DNA of 64,000 bases from Pontiella sulfatireligans. GTDB taxonomy: Bacteria > Verrucomicrobiota > Kiritimatiellia > Kiritimatiellales > Pontiellaceae. Positions 7,659 to 31,780 of the stretch are shown here, one piece after another. The notes beneath the pieces are model-generated. The model saw nothing but the letters and a program-made list of their open reading frames with translations, did no database searches and had not been told where the DNA came from. Each line of letters starts with the position of its first letter. The stretch's first letter is position 1. A program made the translations under genes and the position numbers. The stretch covers positions 372,001 through 436,000 of the forward strand of contig NZ_CAAHFH010000001.1 in assembly GCF_900890705.1 (NCBI RefSeq), in the 5' to 3' direction.

Positions 7659-9821
7659 ATGAAGCAAATTGTTTTCAAATCGGGAGAGGTGTTGTGTGTG
7701 GAAGTACCTGCGCCACAGTTGCAACCGCGGCAAATATTGGTGGACACACATGCCAGTTGTATCAGCCCGGGAACGGAAATGAGCGGTTTGGCTGGGTCAG
7801 GGAAATCGTTATGGCAAAAGGCGAAAGAAAATCCGGACAAGCTAAGAAAGGCGTTTGAACGCATGAAAACCGAGGGGGTTCTTTCGGTTTTGAACCAAGC
7901 GCAAGCGAACCAGGAGAGTGAGACGCCTTGCGGCTATTCTGCTGCAGGTGTTGTTGTTGAGGTTGGCTCAGAAGCAAACGGTTATTCGAAGGGTATGCGT
8001 GTGGCGATTGCCGGGGCGGGATTTGCCAACCATGCGGAGGTGGCCACCGTGCCGGTTAATCTGGCGATGTCGATTCCCGAGAATGTCACGTTGGAGGAGG
8101 CAAGCACCTGTGCCATAGGAGGGATTGCCCTGCAAGGAATTCGGCGAGCCGATGTCTCCCTTGGTGATTTTGTGGTCGTGATAGGATGTGGTGCGATTGG
8201 TTTGCTGACGGTTCAGATGCTACGGGCCGCTGGCTGCCGGGTGATCGGGATTGATCTGGATGCCAAACGACTCGAGTTGGCTAAAAAGCTGGGCGCAGAA
8301 TTTGTATTTAATCCGGCTCAGGAGAATGTTGTTCAGAAGGTGACGCAGGTGACGAACGGGCAAGGCGCAGACCGGGTGATCCTGACGGTAGCCTCTTCAT
8401 CTTCCCAGCCACTCAGGCAGGCCTTCGAAATGTCGAGGCGCAAGGGGCGGGTTGTTCTTGTAGGCGTGGTCGGCATGGAGCTGGAACGTGGCCTGATGTA
8501 TAAGAAAGAACTCGATTTTGTTATTTCCACATCCTATGGCCCCGGTCGGTATGACGAACAGTATGAGCAAAAGGGTATCGATTATCCTTACGGCTACGTT
8601 CGCTGGACGGAGCAACGGAACATGCAAGCCTATCTCCAGATGATTGCAGACGGTTCTGTGAGGCTTTCCGGCATTGTTCATAGCACCTATCCCATTACAC
8701 AGGCGGAGGACGCGTACCAAGCCTTAAAATCGGAAGAGAAACCGCTTTTGGTGCTGTTGTCTTATCCGGCAGAAGAACAAGCAGCTGGAGGTCAGAGGTC
8801 AGAGACCAGAGATCAGACAACAACCAACAACCAACAACCGGCAACCTCATGGATTCCTCCATCGGATGGCATCCTAAAAGTTGGCCTCGCTGGTGTCGGA
8901 GCATTCGTCCAAGGAATGCATATCCCAAATCTCAAGGCATTGGGGGGGCAATACGCCGTTCGGTCGGTTTTCGATCTGACTGGTGTGGCGGGGCGGCAGG
9001 CAGCTCGTCAGCTGCCGGATGCGAACGTGCAGATCGAAACCGATTATGATCAGTTTTTAAAATCCGATATCGACATGGTGCTAATTGGAACGCGACATAA
9101 CAGCCATGCCGAATTGACGATGAAAGCATTGAAGGCGGGTAAAGCGGTGTTTGTTGAGAAGCCGATGTGCATTACCCGTGATGAGTTTGAGAAGTTAGGT
9201 GAAGTCATTGAGGCAACAGAGGCGCCGTTCATGGTTGGATACAACCGCCGCTTTGCTCCTGCCGTGCAAGAAATTCACAAGATTACCGATAAGCGCGTCA
9301 ATCCCTTGGTGGTACATTACACCATGAATGCGGGATATGTTCCCTATGATGCATGGGTGCATGCCGATGAGGGCGGTGGACGCATCATCGGGGAGGGGTG
9401 CCATATCTTTGATCTGTTCCGTTCCCTGACCCGATCCAAGGCCATATCGGTTAGTGTGGATGGCATTCAGCCTAAAACGAGTGCTATCCGAGCTTCCGAC
9501 AACATGGTCGCCACGGTAAAATATGCAGACGGATCGATCTGCACTCTTCTTTATTCTTCCTTGGGCAGCAAAGATGCTCCCAAGGAGCGAATGGAGGTTT
9601 TTTGCGACGAACAGCTATTTGTTCTCAATGACTATATGAAACTCGACAGCTATGGAGCGAGTTGCAACTGGGAGGCCAAACCTGCAGACAAGGGGCATTT
9701 GGTCGAATTGGAATTCTTTGCGGCAGAGGTGATGGCAGGCAACCGTTTTCCTATTCCGTTGGAGGAAATGGTGGAAACCTGGCTGATCTCCCGGCAGGTT
9801 GCCGATCAACTCACCGCCTGA
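7659..9821 (+). CDS. Bi-domain oxidoreductase: MDR dehydrogenase fused to Gfo/Idh/MocA
   Basis: 720 residues in two parts. Residues 1 to about 365 are a medium-chain dehydrogenase/reductase with the NAD(P) loop VVVIGCGAIGLLTVQML at about 175-190. Residues from about 400 are a Gfo/Idh/MocA oxidoreductase with VGLAGVGAFVQGMHIPNL and the catalytic-type EKP motif (FVEKPMCIT). This fusion is a known arrangement in polysaccharide loci and is thought to act on sugar nucleotides, but the substrate is unknown. The two parts are joined by a low-complexity linker rich in Gln, Thr and Asn (about residues 375-398) that is encoded by a heptamer repeat array. The start at 7659 follows an AAGGGGC. Confidence 0.85.
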   Translation: MKQIVFKSGEVLCVEVPAPQLQPRQILVDTHASCISPGTEMSGLAGSGKSLWQKAKENPDKLRKAFERMKTEGVLSVLNQAQANQESETPCGYSAAGVVVEVGSEANGYSKGMRVAIAGAGFANHAEVATVPVNLAMSIPENVTLEEASTCAIGGIALQGIRRADVSLGDFVVVIGCGAIGLLTVQMLRAAGCRVIGIDLDAKRLELAKKLGAEFVFNPAQENVVQKVTQVTNGQGADRVILTVASSSSQPLRQAFEMSRRKGRVVLVGVVGMELERGLMYKKELDFVISTSYGPGRYDEQYEQKGIDYPYGYVRWTEQRNMQAYLQMIADGSVRLSGIVHSTYPITQAEDAYQALKSEEKPLLVLLSYPAEEQAAGGQRSETRDQTTTNNQQPATSWIPPSDGILKVGLAGVGAFVQGMHIPNLKALGGQYAVRSVFDLTGVAGRQAARQLPDANVQIETDYDQFLKSDIDMVLIGTRHNSHAELTMKALKAGKAVFVEKPMCITRDEFEKLGEVIEATEAPFMVGYNRRFAPAVQEIHKITDKRVNPLVVHYTMNAGYVPYDAWVHADEGGGRIIGEGCHIFDLFRSLTRSKAISVSVDGIQPKTSAIRASDNMVATVKYADGSICTLLYSSLGSKDAPKERMEVFCDEQLFVLNDYMKLDSYGASCNWEAKPADKGHLVELEFFAAEVMAGNRFPIPLEEMVETWLISRQVADQLTA
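8790..8845 (+). repeat. Heptamer word array inside a coding region
   Basis: Exactly eight 7-base units in tandem with no phase slip. The first four are GGTCAGA or close variants. The next three are CAACAAC and the last is CGGCAAC. The array encodes the linker between the two domains of the oxidoreductase at 7659. Similar heptamers occur in non-coding DNA at 22580, 22678 and 29580, so this is a dispersed repeat read in frame rather than ordinary linker sequence. Confidence 0.85.
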
Positions 9822-22579: not shown

Positions 22580-22705
22580 GAGGACAGAAGACAGAGGTCG
22601 GCCACCGGCTCGTAGGTCAGGGGCGCTGGTGAGTAAGAGTGTAAGTGAGTGTGGGTGTAGCTGCGATCCATAGCAGAGAACGGAGGTCAGAGGACGGATG
22701 TCAGC
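22580..22705 (+). repeat. Mixed heptamer and octamer word arrays
   Basis: Heptamers of GAGGACA/GAGGTCG type lie at 22580-22600. Four octamers in phase (GTGAGTAA, GAGTGTAA and two variants) lie at 22629-22660. Four more heptamers of GGTCAGA type lie at 22678-22705. The stop codon of the antitoxin gene on the minus strand (22701-22703) lies inside the last heptamer, so the array reaches into the gene. Confidence 0.75.
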
Positions 22706-22991
22706 TTGCTTTGGACTCGACGAGTTCGCCTTCAACATACTGGTGAATCATCGAGGAGATCAGGGTTTGGTAGGGGAGCCCTTTTTCCAAGGCCTTTTTT
22801 TGGATGCCTTTTAGATCGTGGTCGTAGAGGCGAATGGTTACCCGTCGGTCTTTTCGCAAGGTGTTGCGCGCTATGAGCTTTATTTCATCGATTTCTTTTT
22901 GGGACGGGGAGCGTAGATTTACGGAGCCCTGTTCGTAGTCCTCAATGATCTCGTTTTCTTCTTGATCAATCTGCGTTTTCATCGTGTTCAC
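22701..22991 (-). CDS. Ribbon-helix-helix antitoxin (BrnA/CopG-like)
   Basis: 96 residues: an acidic N-terminus followed by RRVTIRLYDHDLKGIQKKAL and a second helix with YQTLISSMIHQYVEGEL, the beta-strand/helix/helix of RHH DNA-binding antitoxins. It lies downstream of, and overlaps by 26 bases, the BrnT-like toxin gene, matching the toxin-first order of brnTA. It should neutralise the toxin and repress the operon. Its 3' end is made of repeat sequence. Confidence 0.8.
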   Translation of the reverse strand: MNTMKTQIDQEENEIIEDYEQGSVNLRSPSQKEIDEIKLIARNTLRKDRRVTIRLYDHDLKGIQKKALEKGLPYQTLISSMIHQYVEGELVESKAS

Positions 22992-23253
22992 TCCTGTAAT
23001 CGCGCGTTGCTTTTCTGCTGGGTATAATGGTTTTTAAAAAAACGCAGTCTTTTCCGATTACATACGGCACAATATATATGTATTCGTCGATGTTCACAAA
23101 ATAGATGCGTTGCCCTGGGTATTTCTTTTGGTTGGGGTGGTCGGCCACCTTCCAAACAGCACCCTCGGACAGATGAAAAAGAACTTGTTCAAAAGAAACG
23201 CCACGTTCCCGTTTTAGTTGCTCGTTCTTTTCCGGATTCCATTCGTAGCGCAT
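22966..23253 (-). CDS. BrnT-family ribonuclease toxin
   Basis: 95 residues, the usual size. MRYEWNPEKNEQLKRERGVS is the standard BrnT entry (W-x-P-x-K-N, H/R-G-V-S-F), and the rest fits the small RelE-like fold with QRIYFVNIDEYIYIVPYVIG. BrnT toxins cleave mRNA. A divergent or overlapping promoter would lie in 23254-23290, where TGTACA and TGTGTACG form an imperfect dyad. Confidence 0.75.
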   Translation of the reverse strand: MRYEWNPEKNEQLKRERGVSFEQVLFHLSEGAVWKVADHPNQKKYPGQRIYFVNIDEYIYIVPYVIGKDCVFLKTIIPSRKATRDYRSEHDENAD

Positions 23254-25224: not shown

Positions 25225-25857
25225 ATGGATTCGATTTATAAAATTATACCGTTCAACATAAAACACGGAAACTGCGGCGGATCGCTGGTGCAGTTCCAGC
25301 AGGGCGTTGAGCCGGAAAACGCTTTGCCGTTCAGCATTGGCAAGGTGCTGGTTTCGTCCGATATGAATCCGGATGATGTGCGCGGCAATCACGCCCACTA
25401 TGAAACGGAAGAGATTGTCGTGGCCCTGAGCGGTGGCTGCACGTTTGAATTGGATGACGGATGTGGCCGAAAAGAGACGGTGTCTCTTTCGTCCTCAGAG
25501 GTCAGTGAGCAGAGGACAGAGGTCAGCGATGGCGGATCAGGTAACAGCAATCCGATCTCCGATCTCCGACCTCCGATCTCTGCTTCACCCGAGTCAAACT
25601 TCCTCTACCCTTCTCAGGATGAAACGGGAGCTCTGGATATAGGTAATTCTCCAAACTCCAAACCTCAAACTTCAGACATCAAACCCGCTCTCCTTCTCTA
25701 TCCCCACATCTGGCGCACATTCTACGATTTTGAGCCGGGAACGGTGTTGTTGGTTGTGGCGAATATTACCTATGACGAAGCGGACTATATCCGAGACCGT
25801 GCAGAGTTTGAGCGGATTGCTGAAACCTGGTCGGGACTTGGCGGAAGTGCTGTTTGA
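25225..25857 (+). CDS. FdtA/QdtA-like dTDP-4-keto-6-deoxyglucose 3,4-ketoisomerase (cupin) with repeat-derived insert
   Basis: 210 residues against about 135-140 for the family. Residues 1-87 have the cupin start and the conserved RGNHAHYETEE (R53-H58). Residues 154-195 complete the cupin with LYPHIWRTFYDFEPGTVLLV and then YDEADYIRD. Between them, about residues 88-153 form a Ser/Pro/Asn-rich segment encoded by heptamer repeat arrays (25498-25685) and absent from the family. The frame is kept, so a protein could still fold if the insert loops out. It isomerises the 4-keto to a 3-keto sugar before amination. GGAG eight bases before ATG 25225 supports the start. Confidence 0.8.
   Translation: MDSIYKIIPFNIKHGNCGGSLVQFQQGVEPENALPFSIGKVLVSSDMNPDDVRGNHAHYETEEIVVALSGGCTFELDDGCGRKETVSLSSSEVSEQRTEVSDGGSGNSNPISDLRPPISASPESNFLYPSQDETGALDIGNSPNSKPQTSDIKPALLLYPHIWRTFYDFEPGTVLLVVANITYDEADYIRDRAEFERIAETWSGLGGSAV
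25498..25685 (+). repeat. Heptamer word arrays inside the 3,4-ketoisomerase gene
   Basis: Thirteen 7-base units run without slip from 25498 to 25588: first GAGGTCA, GAGGACA and variants, then the complementary type GATCTCC/GACCTCC. A second array of five units (CCAAACT, CCAAACC and variants) lies at 25651-25685. The two kinds of unit in the first array are near complements and could fold back on each other. All of it is translated as the extra segment of the cupin protein. Confidence 0.85.
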
Positions 25858-25993: not shown

Positions 25994-26362
25994 ATGACGG
26001 TTAATGAGCTATGCGATGTGGTGCGAGAGACAAGTTTTGCGATACACAAGTATCATCGCAATGGCCATTTGGAAAAAATCTATGAGAATGCCTTGGCTCA
26101 CCGCCTTCGGAAGTTGGGGGTGAAAGTTGAACAGCAGTTTCCATTAACCGTTTATGATGAGGATGGAACCGTAATCGGAGAATATTTTGCTGACCTTTTT
26201 GTTGAGGATTGCTTGATTGTTGAACTCAAGGCTTGCAGGAATACAGCAGAAGAACATGTTGCTCAATTATTAGGTTATTTAAAATCTTCACGAATCCATG
26301 ATGGATTGTTAATAAATTTTGGTGCGCCAAGGCTCTATATCAAAAAGTATGTAATGGACTGA
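25994..26362 (+). CDS. GxxExxY protein (PD-(D/E)XK-like fold)
   Basis: 122 residues. The naming motif is GHLEKIY at about residues 23-29. A DLFVEDCLIVELKA segment gives the D...ExK arrangement of the restriction-endonuclease-like fold. The function of this widespread family is not established. GGGAG five bases before ATG 25994 fixes the start; the frame is open from 25949. The gene is bracketed by inverted decamer repeats (25858 and 26363) and sits between two sugar-nucleotide genes with no functional tie to it, so it looks like a cassette insertion. Confidence 0.8.
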   Translation: MTVNELCDVVRETSFAIHKYHRNGHLEKIYENALAHRLRKLGVKVEQQFPLTVYDEDGTVIGEYFADLFVEDCLIVELKACRNTAEEHVAQLLGYLKSSRIHDGLLINFGAPRLYIKKYVMD

Positions 26363-28524: not shown

Positions 28525-28590
28525 GTGGATATAATTTGGTGCTGGGTGCTTGGGGCTGGGTAAGGGGTAAGGGCGTGGTGGAGTATGGAT
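28525..28590 (+). repeat. G-rich octamer-like words
   Basis: Degenerate GTGCTTGG, GTAAGGGC, GTGGTGGA and GTATGGAT units with some phase slips, related to the clean octamer array at 30798. It lies between the divergent sugar transferase and toxin-antitoxin genes. Confidence 0.5.
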
Positions 28591-28670: not shown

Positions 28671-28892
28671 ATGACAGTCACAGCATCCGTGCTTAGGAAG
28701 GACATCTATCATTTGCTCGACCATGTGTTGGAAACCGGGCAACCGTTAGCCGTGCAGCGGAAGACCGGAACGGTAAAAATTGTGGCTGAACAACCATCGA
28801 CCAAAATGTCGCGGCTGAGAAAGCGCGAGTGTATTCAAGGCGATCCAGAGGAACTGGTTCATTCTGATTGGTCGGGAGAGTGGAAGCCGTGA
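28671..28892 (+). CDS. Phd/YefM-type antitoxin
   Basis: 73 residues. MTVTASVLRKDIYHLLDHVL and then TGQPLAVQRKTGTVKIVAEQ match the DNA-binding Phd/YefM N-terminus. The C-terminal part, ending in SDWSGEWKP, would wrap the toxin. GAGGTGG at 28659 is the ribosome binding site. The stop overlaps the toxin start (GTGA). Confidence 0.8.
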   Translation: MTVTASVLRKDIYHLLDHVLETGQPLAVQRKTGTVKIVAEQPSTKMSRLRKRECIQGDPEELVHSDWSGEWKP

Positions 28893-29263
28893 TATATCTG
28901 GATACGCATGTCGTGGTGTGGCTCTATGCGGGAGAGTTTGACCGGTTTCCCGCCAGTGCGTCTGAATTTATCGAACAGAACAACCTGCTCATATCGCCAG
29001 CCGTGTTGCTGGAGCTGCAGTTTCTCAAGGAAATCAAGCGTATCACAGCTGACCCGATGCTGGTGTTCCAGACGTTGGAAGAAACCATCGGCCTGCAGTT
29101 GTGCAAACTGGAGTTCTACAAGGTGGTCGTTGGTGCATTGTCCCAGTCGTGGACCCGCGACCCGTTTGACCGGTTGATTGCCGCTCAGGCATCGATCCGA
29201 AATGCGTCGCTGCTCACCAAAGACCGGATCATCCGTCGCAACTGTTCCACTGCCTGCTGGTGA
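28889..29263 (+). CDS. PIN-domain ribonuclease toxin (VapC-like)
   Basis: About 124 residues from GTG 28889. The acidic PIN residues are present in order: D in IYLDTHVVVW, E in VLLELQFL, D in RDPFDRLIAAQA and D in LLTKDRII. The protein should cleave RNA and be held by the upstream antitoxin. The orphan pair separates the sugar transferase and aminotransferase genes, and it differs from the brnTA-like pair 6 kb upstream. Confidence 0.85.
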   Translation: MIYLDTHVVVWLYAGEFDRFPASASEFIEQNNLLISPAVLLELQFLKEIKRITADPMLVFQTLEETIGLQLCKLEFYKVVVGALSQSWTRDPFDRLIAAQASIRNASLLTKDRIIRRNCSTACW

Positions 29264-30793: not shown

Positions 30794-30797
30794 ATGC

Positions 30798-30980
30798 GTA
30801 AGGGAGTATCTGGGTATGGGCGTGGAGGCGTAAGGGAGTTATTGGGTAAGGGAGTTGTGGAGTAAAGGTGCAGGGGCGTTACTGGGTAGTTGAGTCTGGG
30901 AGTCCTTGGGTAAGGGAGTGGGATGAGTAAGGGCGTTACACCGATACCCTATTTACACCATTACTCCGTTACTGAAGGAA
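30798..30980 (+). repeat. Octamer word array, 18 G-rich units plus complementary tail
   Basis: From 30798 to 30942 the DNA divides into 18 consecutive units, all eight bases long except one of nine. All begin with G and 17 begin GT, with consensus GTNNNGGN. GTAAGGGA recurs at 30798, 30830, 30846 and 30910. From 30935 to 30980 complementary C-rich words (TTACACC, ATTACTCC) appear, so the array can fold on itself. It fills the 200-base gap between the aminotransferase and the four-helix-bundle gene and starts five bases after the former's stop. Confidence 0.9.
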
Positions 30981-30993
30981 ACGGGATAAAATC

Positions 30994-31245
30994 ATGGGTG
31001 AATTTGCTAATAGTTTTCGAGATCTGGATGTGTATCAAGACGCATTAAACTTGTCCTTGGAAATCCATGAGTTTGCCAAATTCTTGCCCACTGAAGAAAG
31101 GTATGTGTTGGCTGATCAAATGCGACGAGCTTCTCGCTCCGTGCCAGCTAATATTTCCGAAGCGTGGCTTCCTGCTCCGCTTCCAGCCCGTTGGGCTTAC
31201 TGGCCGGAGGGTAGAGACGTTTATGTATGTTGTATATGCCATTGA
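30994..31245 (+). pseudogene. Four-helix-bundle (S23/23S IVS-type) protein, N-terminal part, interrupted
   Basis: Residues 1-58 follow the family: FRDLDVYQDALNLSLEIHEF, and then QMRRASRSVPANISEAW. After W58 the sequence turns into foreign LPAPLPARWAYWPEG and stops at codon 84. The rest of the family (RKRRYKAAFIAKLSDSETEA onward) resumes at 31489 in the same phase. Functions of this family are unclear; relatives are found in 23S rRNA intervening sequences. The gene lies between inverted octamer arrays (30798 and 31733). Confidence 0.8.
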
Positions 31246-31488
31246 GAGTCGAACAACGGGGAGGGTGTATGTGGGGCAGTCTCAAGATTTTGATAAACGA
31301 TTGAAGCTTCATAACAGTGGGCATGTTATATCGACCTCGCAAGACGGGCCTTGGATGCTTGTCGCTATGGAATGCTTTGAGACGCGAGATCAGGCTCGTT
31401 GGTGCGAAAAGTTGTTGAAGAAGTCTCGTGGAAGACGGTTGAAATGGTTGGAGCAACACAAGCAATGACTCGCGTACAACTCGGAGAG
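31168..31488 (+). mobile_element. 321-bp insert carrying a GIY-YIG nuclease in the four-helix-bundle gene
   Basis: Removing 31168-31488 restores a continuous reading frame ...SVPANISEAW-RKRRYKAAFIAKL..., the normal family sequence, so the insert is exactly 107 codons and seamless, with no duplicated target bases at these limits. It begins with a hairpin AGCCC-GTT-GGGCT and encodes a small GIY-YIG protein. It is organised like a homing or intervening element, but no intron core fold was recognised by eye. Confidence 0.7.
31223..31468 (+). CDS. GIY-YIG nuclease (URI domain, COG2827-like)
   Basis: 81 residues. Family features are YVVYAIES (the GIY-like strand), RVYVGQSQDFDKRLKLHNSG (YIG-equivalent YVG plus the catalytic-type Arg), and ARWCEKLLKKSRGRRLKWLE. 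Single-domain proteins of this type are presumed nucleases, related to the UvrC N-terminus and homing enzymes. GGAGGG about 11 bases upstream supports ATG 31223. The stop overlaps the start of the downstream gene fragment (ATGA). The gene lies wholly inside the 321-bp insert. Confidence 0.85.
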   Translation: MYVVYAIESRTTGRVYVGQSQDFDKRLKLHNSGHVISTSQDGPWMLVAMECFETRDQARWCEKLLKKSRGRRLKWLEQHKQ

Positions 31489-31692
31489 CGTAAACGTAGA
31501 TACAAAGCAGCGTTTATTGCCAAATTGAGTGATTCTGAAACAGAAGCATCTGAGATGCAGTGCTGGCTGGACTTTTCATTAAAGGCCAAGTTTATGACGC
31601 AGATTGTGTATGAAGGTTTTGATCAGCGATACGAACGAATTATCGCACAGCTTGTGACGATGATTGACGGAGCAGACAAATGGTGTCGTTGA
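31465..31692 (+). pseudogene. Four-helix-bundle protein, C-terminal part, fused to insert sequence
   Basis: ATG 31465 overlaps the nuclease stop. The first eight residues (MTRVQLGE) come from the insert, and the rest (RKRRYKAAFIAKLSDSETEA, then WLDFSLKAKFM) is the missing C-terminal half of the gene at 30994. Coupled translation could still produce it as a separate half-protein. Whether the two halves assemble is unknown. Confidence 0.7.
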
Positions 31693-31732
31693 GAGATGGA
31701 GTCGATGTGAAATCAGGGTGGCACTATCTTTT

Positions 31733-31780
31733 CCCCATACCCCCTTACGCCCATACTCCCTTACCCCTTTCCTCCATACA
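31733..31780 (-). repeat. Octamer word array, inverted relative to 30798
   Basis: Six eight-base units in phase on the + strand, CCCCATAC, CCCCTTAC, GCCCATAC and so on, the exact complement class of GTAWGGGN at 30798-30942. Together they bracket the split four-helix-bundle gene. The array also forms the leader of the sugar transferase gene, ending just before its ribosome binding site. Confidence 0.85.

Follow-up and report, generated by a model that had tools for sequence, protein, structure and literature searches.

The window analysed here is a stretch of 64,000 nucleotides of the Pontiella sulfatireligans genome (contig NZ_CAAHFH010000001.1, positions 372,001 to 436,000, forward strand); coordinates without a contig prefix refer to it. 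It contains a predicted gene for a cupin of the dTDP-sugar 3,4-ketoisomerase family (25225-25857, +), here called FdtA-like, the coding sequence of which carries degenerate heptamer arrays. A single open frame, nested in a longer listed frame, spans the whole gene including the insert. The protein matches the Pfam FdtA model (PF05523) in two stretches with 91.9 bits, the cut-off being 23, as well as PDB entries 2pa7 and 7n67 and QdtA; no NCBIfam model was reached. Its RGNHAH aligns with RGFHAH of 2pa7, so that the HAH motif is present; however, the YY that follows RV in 2pa7 is replaced by LV, and the exact predicted reaction is therefore left unassigned.

Alignment with six orthologues delimits an in-frame insert of 198 nt, or 66 residues (residues 89-154), at 25489-25686 (+), between the core segments ETVSL and ALLLYPHIW. 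The conserved segments are 5 residues apart in 2pa7 and 69 here, i.e., approximately 64 residues are extra, and known FdtA/QdtA structures have about 5-8 residues at this site (5 and 8 in the PDB homologues). These values agree with an earlier note on this DNA, which had described an enzyme about 65-70 residues longer than its family, with 13 plus 5 phased heptamers kept in frame between two conserved core segments: the lag-7 runs in the gene (25491-25591 and 25639-25688) hold approximately 13 and 5 heptamers, and the site is one where relatives vary in length. The best lag-7 score of the insert is 19/21, whereas pieces of the gene's own core reach at most 11/21 at any lag from 4 to 12. Over the whole window 68 positions scored at least 20/28 at lag 7, compared with a mean of 0.3 in 10 shuffles; lags 8, 10, and 12 gave 14, 15, and 17 positions, and the remaining lags from 4 to 14 none. 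An AlphaFold run on the protein with 7 sequences had a mean pLDDT (predicted local distance difference test) of 36.6 and supports no structural claim.

The insert consists of three parts. First, a fold-back array (25505-25588, +) has AGGTCAG-type words followed by CCGATCT/CCGACCT-type words that pair with them in the predicted RNA fold. The fold of 25488-25590 is a long stem with regularly spaced single mismatches (z -2.1; 9 of 200 shuffles as good), and that of 25488-25690 reaches z -2.74 (0 of 200). Second, an array of TCCAAAC words encoding NSKPQTSD (25639-25688, +) was found both by Tandem Repeats Finder (TRF) and by the lag-7 scan. Arrays detected by TRF show 81-91% matches and are thus degenerate. 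Third, what had been taken for a plain linker between the arrays contains a non-repetitive piece of 66 nt (25584-25650, +) encoding ESNFLYPSQDETGALDIG, which recurs in another enzyme of relatives, namely in WecG-type glycosyltransferase genes, in the same frame and with mainly synonymous differences. The piece occurs in 7 of 193 genomes of the class at E <= 0.05, every one of one genus, at two different WecG-type sites in relatives and in FdtA in P. sulfatireligans, the genome of which has only a distant WecG-type homologue and a single copy of the piece. Words of the same types had also been reported between genes at 22580, 22678, and 29580; they are present, but short and degenerate (best lag-7 scores 10, 9, and 9 of 14), and none is among the lag-7 runs, though TRF lists 22674-22704.

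The same loop was compared in relatives of P. sulfatireligans (own genome, 7.4 Mb), homologous records including Pontiellaceae and metagenome-assembled genomes of Kiritimatiellae. A search with the FdtA protein gave matches in 18 of 58 genomes, some via the insert alone. Twelve loops were scored (own, nine other genomes, a second copy in G034, and one named contig), and seven contain arrays of period 7 (own, G040, G037, and G035) or period 8 (G005, G031, G029, and G035) with differing words; the other five have 10-12 or 20 residues and no period. As these genes were chosen as open across the loop, the in-frame state of the inserts is partly built into the sample. Outside the scoring remain G046 and two-domain homologues in G004 and G032, the loops of which look short and plain, and also G006 and G041, each represented by the second half of the gene alone. 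Apart from the one kept piece, insert content differs between species. An ordinary family insertion, i.e., homologues sharing the segment together with conserved residues, is ruled out by this unlike content at the same site, the only exception being the piece kept in a different enzyme. For seven FdtA inserts the z of the fold lies between -3.35 and +0.35; in two of the seven no partner scored better than the own 3' arm.

The cores of these genes are under purifying selection: against G005 the nonsynonymous distance (dN) is 0.08 and the synonymous distance (dS) about 2.0, four further pairs being alike or beyond measurement. Since synonymous sites are thus near saturation, crisp arrays that are still 81-91% regular must be young or renewed rather than an old neutral inheritance.

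The FdtA-like gene is not the single colonised gene that the earlier note had implied, as similar arrays were read in many enzymes across the order, nor is one repeat involved: the many different words share a 7- or 8-base period. GDP-fucose synthase (Fcl), read in 30 genomes, has arrays at the N-terminus and in two internal loops; among 58 loop stretches 44 were long enough for scoring, and 32 of these reached at least 14/21 at lag 7 compared with 0 of 571 core pieces, other lags giving 0-4 of 44. Orthologues have these sites in common, often with unlike words (e.g., TCCAAAC, AGAGGTC, CCGACCT, and CAACCAA types). The tree of Fcl cores implies at least seven gains or losses of the N-terminal array, with only 4 of 27 inner branches starred, so that it carries light weight only. 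At site 1 of the WecG-type glycosyltransferase all seven pattern-matched genes (among 19 loci) score 15-19/21 at lag 7, and at site 2 period 7 was found in two of six. The genome of P. sulfatireligans has further arrays in genes read as RmlB, WecB, sulfatase, Cas4, a PF05635 gene, the pyruvate dehydrogenase (PDH) subunits E2 and E3, ABC-F, and a zinc dehydrogenase / Gfo-Idh fusion; in the last (7659-9821) the array occupies the linker in frame (8776-8855, +; lag-7 scan). Arrays also occur in RibF and PrmA of G030 and in a nucleotide-sugar dehydrogenase of G005. In-frame arrays are thus a habit of the order, not of one gene. Gene names without a Pfam match were assigned by reading, the placement of arrays in loops follows from conserved blocks on both sides, not from structures, and, as start codons were set by a simple gene caller, some N-terminal arrays may be upstream of the true start. 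As a separate observation, the PDH E2 and E3 genes (C3:176548-179609) have similar arrays in interdomain linkers, and because these are about 77% alike over about 200 bp, linker and array were probably duplicated together.

A survey of 1.256 Mb of the P. sulfatireligans genome gave 32 lag-7 arrays, 18 of them intergenic (approximately 13% of the DNA) and 14 in predicted genes; arrays are therefore depleted in genes (14 in 1091 kb of coding DNA vs 18 in 165 kb between genes). Lags 5, 6, and 8-11 gave 0-6 arrays each in the same DNA, and lag 14, a harmonic, gave 9. One repeat family copied through the genome was rejected, as blastn of the 32 arrays with their flanks gave mainly matches confined to the words; some longer duplications were also found, and a dispersed repeat of about 37 nt lies beside the array at C1:1954009. 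The genomes without a PF05635 match (G012 and G016) contain one array in 397 kb, against the 32 in 1256 kb of the own genome; this agrees with a link between arrays and PF05635, but is to be read with the low GC content of G016 (0.31) and with G024, which has one array in 200 kb and PF05635 content that was not searched.

Coding arrays are poor in stop codons. In the 21 arrays lying wholly inside genes of five genomes, the frequency of stop trinucleotides per 100 is 1.22 for the sense strand and 5.58 for the antisense strand, compared with 4.39 and 4.93 in 27 intergenic arrays; the sense-strand poverty is partly a consequence of the open frame. The effect is slight in Fcl loops (2.15 vs 2.95 in cores). 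Since 7 leaves 1 on division by 3, a stop-free heptamer array reads as one seven-residue cycle in all three frames and can therefore enter any frame, provided that its length is a multiple of 3.

The arrays are associated with genes of the four-helix-bundle family PF05635 ('23S rRNA intervening sequence protein'), of which the genome has 13 matches. Seven of 12 PF05635 stretches have a lag-7 array inside or within 300 bp, the background being 4.3%. In an extended set of 35 loci (30 from relatives, minus 2 unplaced and 2 short-flanked, plus 9 own) arrays occur on 35 of 70 sides, compared with 3 of 66 control stretches 640-800 bp away. Twelve loci have both arms, better matched in inverted orientation in nine and in direct orientation in three. 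The mean cyclic mismatch of arms is 1.58 inverted, 3.0 direct, and 2.93 with shuffled partners (the lowest of 2000 being 2.08). With the threshold set at the 99th percentile of mismatched partners and the element in the window added, the inverted-flank score exceeds it in 14 of 36 PF05635 loci vs 0 of 82 other small genes of the same genome; direct similarity of the flanks is raised too (15.1 vs 11.6). Fisher tests on these associations are too strong, as the loci include orthologues. GxxExxY (PF13366) genes were considered as array partners and rejected (0 of 7 with a lag-7 array within 300 bp). One such gene lies between the FdtA-like gene and a hexapeptide acetyltransferase gene (25994-26362), and in G019 and G024 fcl is preceded by one.

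A PF05635-like gene between gmd and fcl accompanies the N-terminal array of Fcl: it was found in 13 of 15 genomes with the array and in 2 of 15 without it, by pattern-based counts in which G015 was included at 12/21 and two of the arrayless genomes had little upstream sequence. The two exceptions with an array are G036, which shows the end of a PF05635 gene, and G030, where a possible decayed remnant was seen by eye. Several genomes without the array have gmd directly upstream of fcl, and one close pair agrees, G027 having both array and gene and G024 neither.

The window contains an element of this kind, with octamer arms. Its left arm (30795-30940, +; limits approximate, by eye; TRF 30798-30865, period 16) consists of GTAAGGGA.. 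words and pairs with the right arm, CCCATACC CCCTTACG (31730-31775, +; limits approximate; TRF and inverted alignment), with an inverted score of 24. Between them the PF05635 gene (30994-31692, +; profile search) is in two pieces around a GIY-YIG frame (31067-31468), inserted between profile positions 50 and 51. In G005 (twice) and G003 the match to PF05635 is likewise partial and stops at position 50, which hints at a recurrent, homing-like insertion.

Similar loci occur on plasmids of other phyla. Tblastn gave 39 plasmid records with PF05635 relatives, mainly of Nostocales (Nostocales genera in at least 25 of 39), and 23 loci were picked and read, gene limits being set by hand in two. Lag-7 arrays lie on 22 of 46 sides, compared with 1 of 64 sides of 32 other small genes from two Nostoc plasmids, and the inverted score is above threshold in 9 of 23 loci vs 0 of 32. 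The nine belong to Anabaena, Nostoc (four), Calothrix, Azospirillum, Riemerella, and Gemmatirosa (8-base); a Pseudanabaena locus has direct arms. In stretches of two Nostoc plasmids chosen for their PF05635 genes, all seven arrays are in inverted layouts by reading: two pairs flank PF05635 genes, one pair is gene-less and 181 bp across, and one array is self-folding. Several plasmid PF05635 genes lie between operon genes, e.g., cas6 and cas4. Three plasmid loci (L257, L259, and L261) have four-helix-bundle genes between cas genes inside CRISPR operons, and one such gene of P. sulfatireligans lies beside a Cas4-like gene. The PF05635 query matches PDB 2gsc, XCC0516, which we take to be a Xanthomonas protein; Xanthomonas is a heptamer-rich genus according to the parts of PMC4692102 covered.

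Inverted partners were also sought for arrays at large. An inverted partner within 450 bp was aligned to 15 of the 32 own-genome arrays and a direct partner to 4, while random places gave 0 and flanks of other arrays 6.6%. Coding arrays fold with z below -2 in 6 of 14 cases, compared with 3 of 40 controls; intergenic arrays are indistinguishable from controls in folding. A gene-less fold-back of 158 nt was found in three copies, 96-100% alike, in unrelated places of the genome: C1:137417-137574 and C1:355262-355419, a pair 98.7% alike of which the latter ends 14 nt upstream of the RmlB gene, and C2:58245-58402. It has terminal inverted repeats AGGAGCTTGCAAAACCTC and inner inverted heptamer arms (z -5.64), and 4-bp flanking repeats, exact in two copies and near in the third by eye, resemble target duplications. 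Of 30 genomes 14 contain matches to the family, among them G005 and G013 with several full-length copies (approximately 70-84% alike) and G007 with several copies. Because such copies are dispersed, gene-less fold-backs with heptamer arms move. The end motif occurs neither in the window nor in any of 37 PF05635 loci; therefore, the family is a sister case and no proof for the FdtA insert.

Two further gene pairs were noted in the window. A heptamer array (28534-28576) adjoins a Phd/YefM-like gene, below the cut-off, paired with a PIN-domain gene (28671-29263), and a BrnT/CopG-like toxin-antitoxin pair, both members of which are under Pfam cut-offs, is encoded at 22701-23253 (-).

The explanation we favour, with a probability of roughly 60%, sees in the FdtA segment a fold-back array without a gene, translated and belonging to the class found beside PF05635 genes, which was retained on account of its position in a loop, its length divisible by 3, and its stop-poor words. 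Arrays of 7 or 8 bases, often as two inverted arms, would arise repeatedly, mostly between genes, and would also arm PF05635 genes, mostly inverted and matched in word, like the stem and optional gene of 23S rRNA intervening sequences. The arms differ in word between copies and yet match within a copy, which suggests that one arm is templated by the other, possibly by copying through the hairpin. A stop-free heptamer array would enter any frame, and the arrays surviving within genes would be those in a loop, linker or end, with a length divisible by 3 and a stop-poor sense strand; the FdtA segment presumably shares its origin with the arrays flanking PF05635 genes, and the protein would tolerate the added loop. 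The support for this origin has limits. Although the first array of the insert folds back, its arms are not at both insert ends; the four-helix-bundle gene found between arms elsewhere is absent from it; and the 158-nt family has no sequence link to it, so that this family left the odds of the readings unchanged. A wider version, more tentative than the explanation just given, is that a cross-phylum element resembling intervening sequences, i.e., a PF05635 gene between matched inverted 7/8-base arms copied via a hairpin, has gene-less forms that enter enzymes in frame and write new loops.

The main rival, somewhat unlikely but the most serious, is slippage followed by a sieve: 7-base arrays would arise anywhere, degenerate, and persist in tolerant coding loops without any element, PF05635 genes landing in or tolerating array-rich gaps. 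Depletion in genes, stop bias, and the ordinary folding of intergenic arrays all suit it, and slippage with a 7-nt polymerase contact has been proposed (PMC4679880, in the parts covered). However, slippage alone yields neither the inverted partners seen for almost half of the arrays nor the matching of left and right words at PF05635 genes, and both the zero count among 82 other small genes and the dispersed fold-back copies speak against it.

It is improbable that the loop was selected as a functional protein segment, its repetitive look being secondary. The piece ESNFLYPSQDETGxLD, in frame and with mainly synonymous changes in WecG-type genes, would fit such selection; the rest of the insert, however, differs between species, and loops are short in the FdtA/QdtA structures and in five of the 12 scored genes (10-20 residues). 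Slightly less probable still is a contingency locus for phase variation, in which 7-base copy changes shift the frame and switch a polysaccharide gene on or off. Seven is no multiple of 3, and a number of arrays belong to sugar-nucleotide genes located at 355-398 kb of the contig, but the arrays are degenerate and broken up, hence poor slippage substrates, and also occur in genes read as PDH E2/E3, RibF, and PrmA. A pseudogene or assembly artefact, suggested by the half genes in G006 and G041, is very unlikely, as the own gene is open, its core is constrained, and the pattern recurs in many independent assemblies and genes.

The gain of loops by enzymes is usually told after the fact, whereas many young or renewed, frame-neutral insertions at common loops of orthologues make gain, tolerance, and turnover directly comparable. 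Matched arms of PF05635 genes are a testable lead on what makes 7-base arrays, and also on the role of the common 'four helix bundle protein' outside rRNA. The cross-phylum element, if true, would account for the unexplained heptamers of cyanobacteria and other taxa. A literature search over titles and beginnings of abstracts, with most subscription papers outside its scope, gave no shared loop sites and no heptamer arms at PF05635 genes among the matches listed; those listed for heptamers made no mention of four-helix bundles or S23, and those listed for Kiritimatiellota repeats did not name the phylum.

Short tandemly repeated repetitive (STRR) sequences are heptanucleotide repeats of cyanobacteria. 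Heptamers are reportedly over-represented in many bacteria (PMC4692102 and PMC4679880, in the parts covered), and the arrays described here resemble those of cyanobacteria and Xanthomonas (e.g., GGGNATC, PMC4692102) in being tandem 7-base units, mostly intergenic and genome-wide. They differ from the one word type of the covered parts of that paper in having many words per genome instead of one shared word, arms in inverted orientation, loop sites common to orthologous enzymes, and arms that enclose a PF05635 gene. In Beggiatoaceae, 11 reading frames contain TAACTGA heptamers, oriented so as to be free of stops and placed mostly at protein ends; one falls in a variable region that corresponds to a surface loop in a homologue of RNA polymerase beta', and coding constraint was argued from stop content (PMC4679880, in the parts covered); unlike here, one word is involved, and those parts describe no loop sites shared by orthologues and no four-helix-bundle link. 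Intervening sequences of 23S rRNA have terminal inverted repeats forming a stem, an optional S23 gene, insertion at helix loops, and a scattered distribution (PMC4990558, in the parts covered). The present loci are similar in their optional S23/PF05635-type gene, their insertion at loops, their scattered occurrence and, for a part of them, their inverted arms, but intervening sequences are located in rRNA, from which RNase III excises them (same parts of PMC4990558), while the loci described here are outside rRNA, their arms being 7/8-base arrays that vary in word and their coding copies being in open frames. As all inserts read lie in protein genes or between genes and the FdtA insert contains no four-helix-bundle gene, two defining features fail, and the FdtA segment is not classed as a 23S rRNA intervening sequence. 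Rickettsia palindromic elements and miniature inverted-repeat transposable elements (MITEs) are palindromic DNA, the former in frame in unrelated genes, and form families of homologous sequence. The 158-nt element looks MITE-like, and its family does have homologous copies; in contrast, what the FdtA insert has in common with other arrays is limited to period and word types, and its piece encoding ESNFLYPSQDETGALDIG, being single-copy in its own genome, has none. Paired heptamers also lengthen a stem at a loop of conserved genes in the cyanobacterial tRNA-Leu intron P6b and rnpB, but these are untranslated RNA genes, unlike the protein gene considered here. Palindromic amphipathic repeat coding elements (PARCELs) are likewise coding repeats with dyad symmetry; they differ in their 25-residue motif and in membrane targeting, many being found in membrane-targeted proteins (PMC2996958, in the parts covered). 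Heptamer repeats, a few of them in coding sequence, were thus already known; the shared loop sites and the link with PF05635 genes are the new part, as far as the literature was searched.
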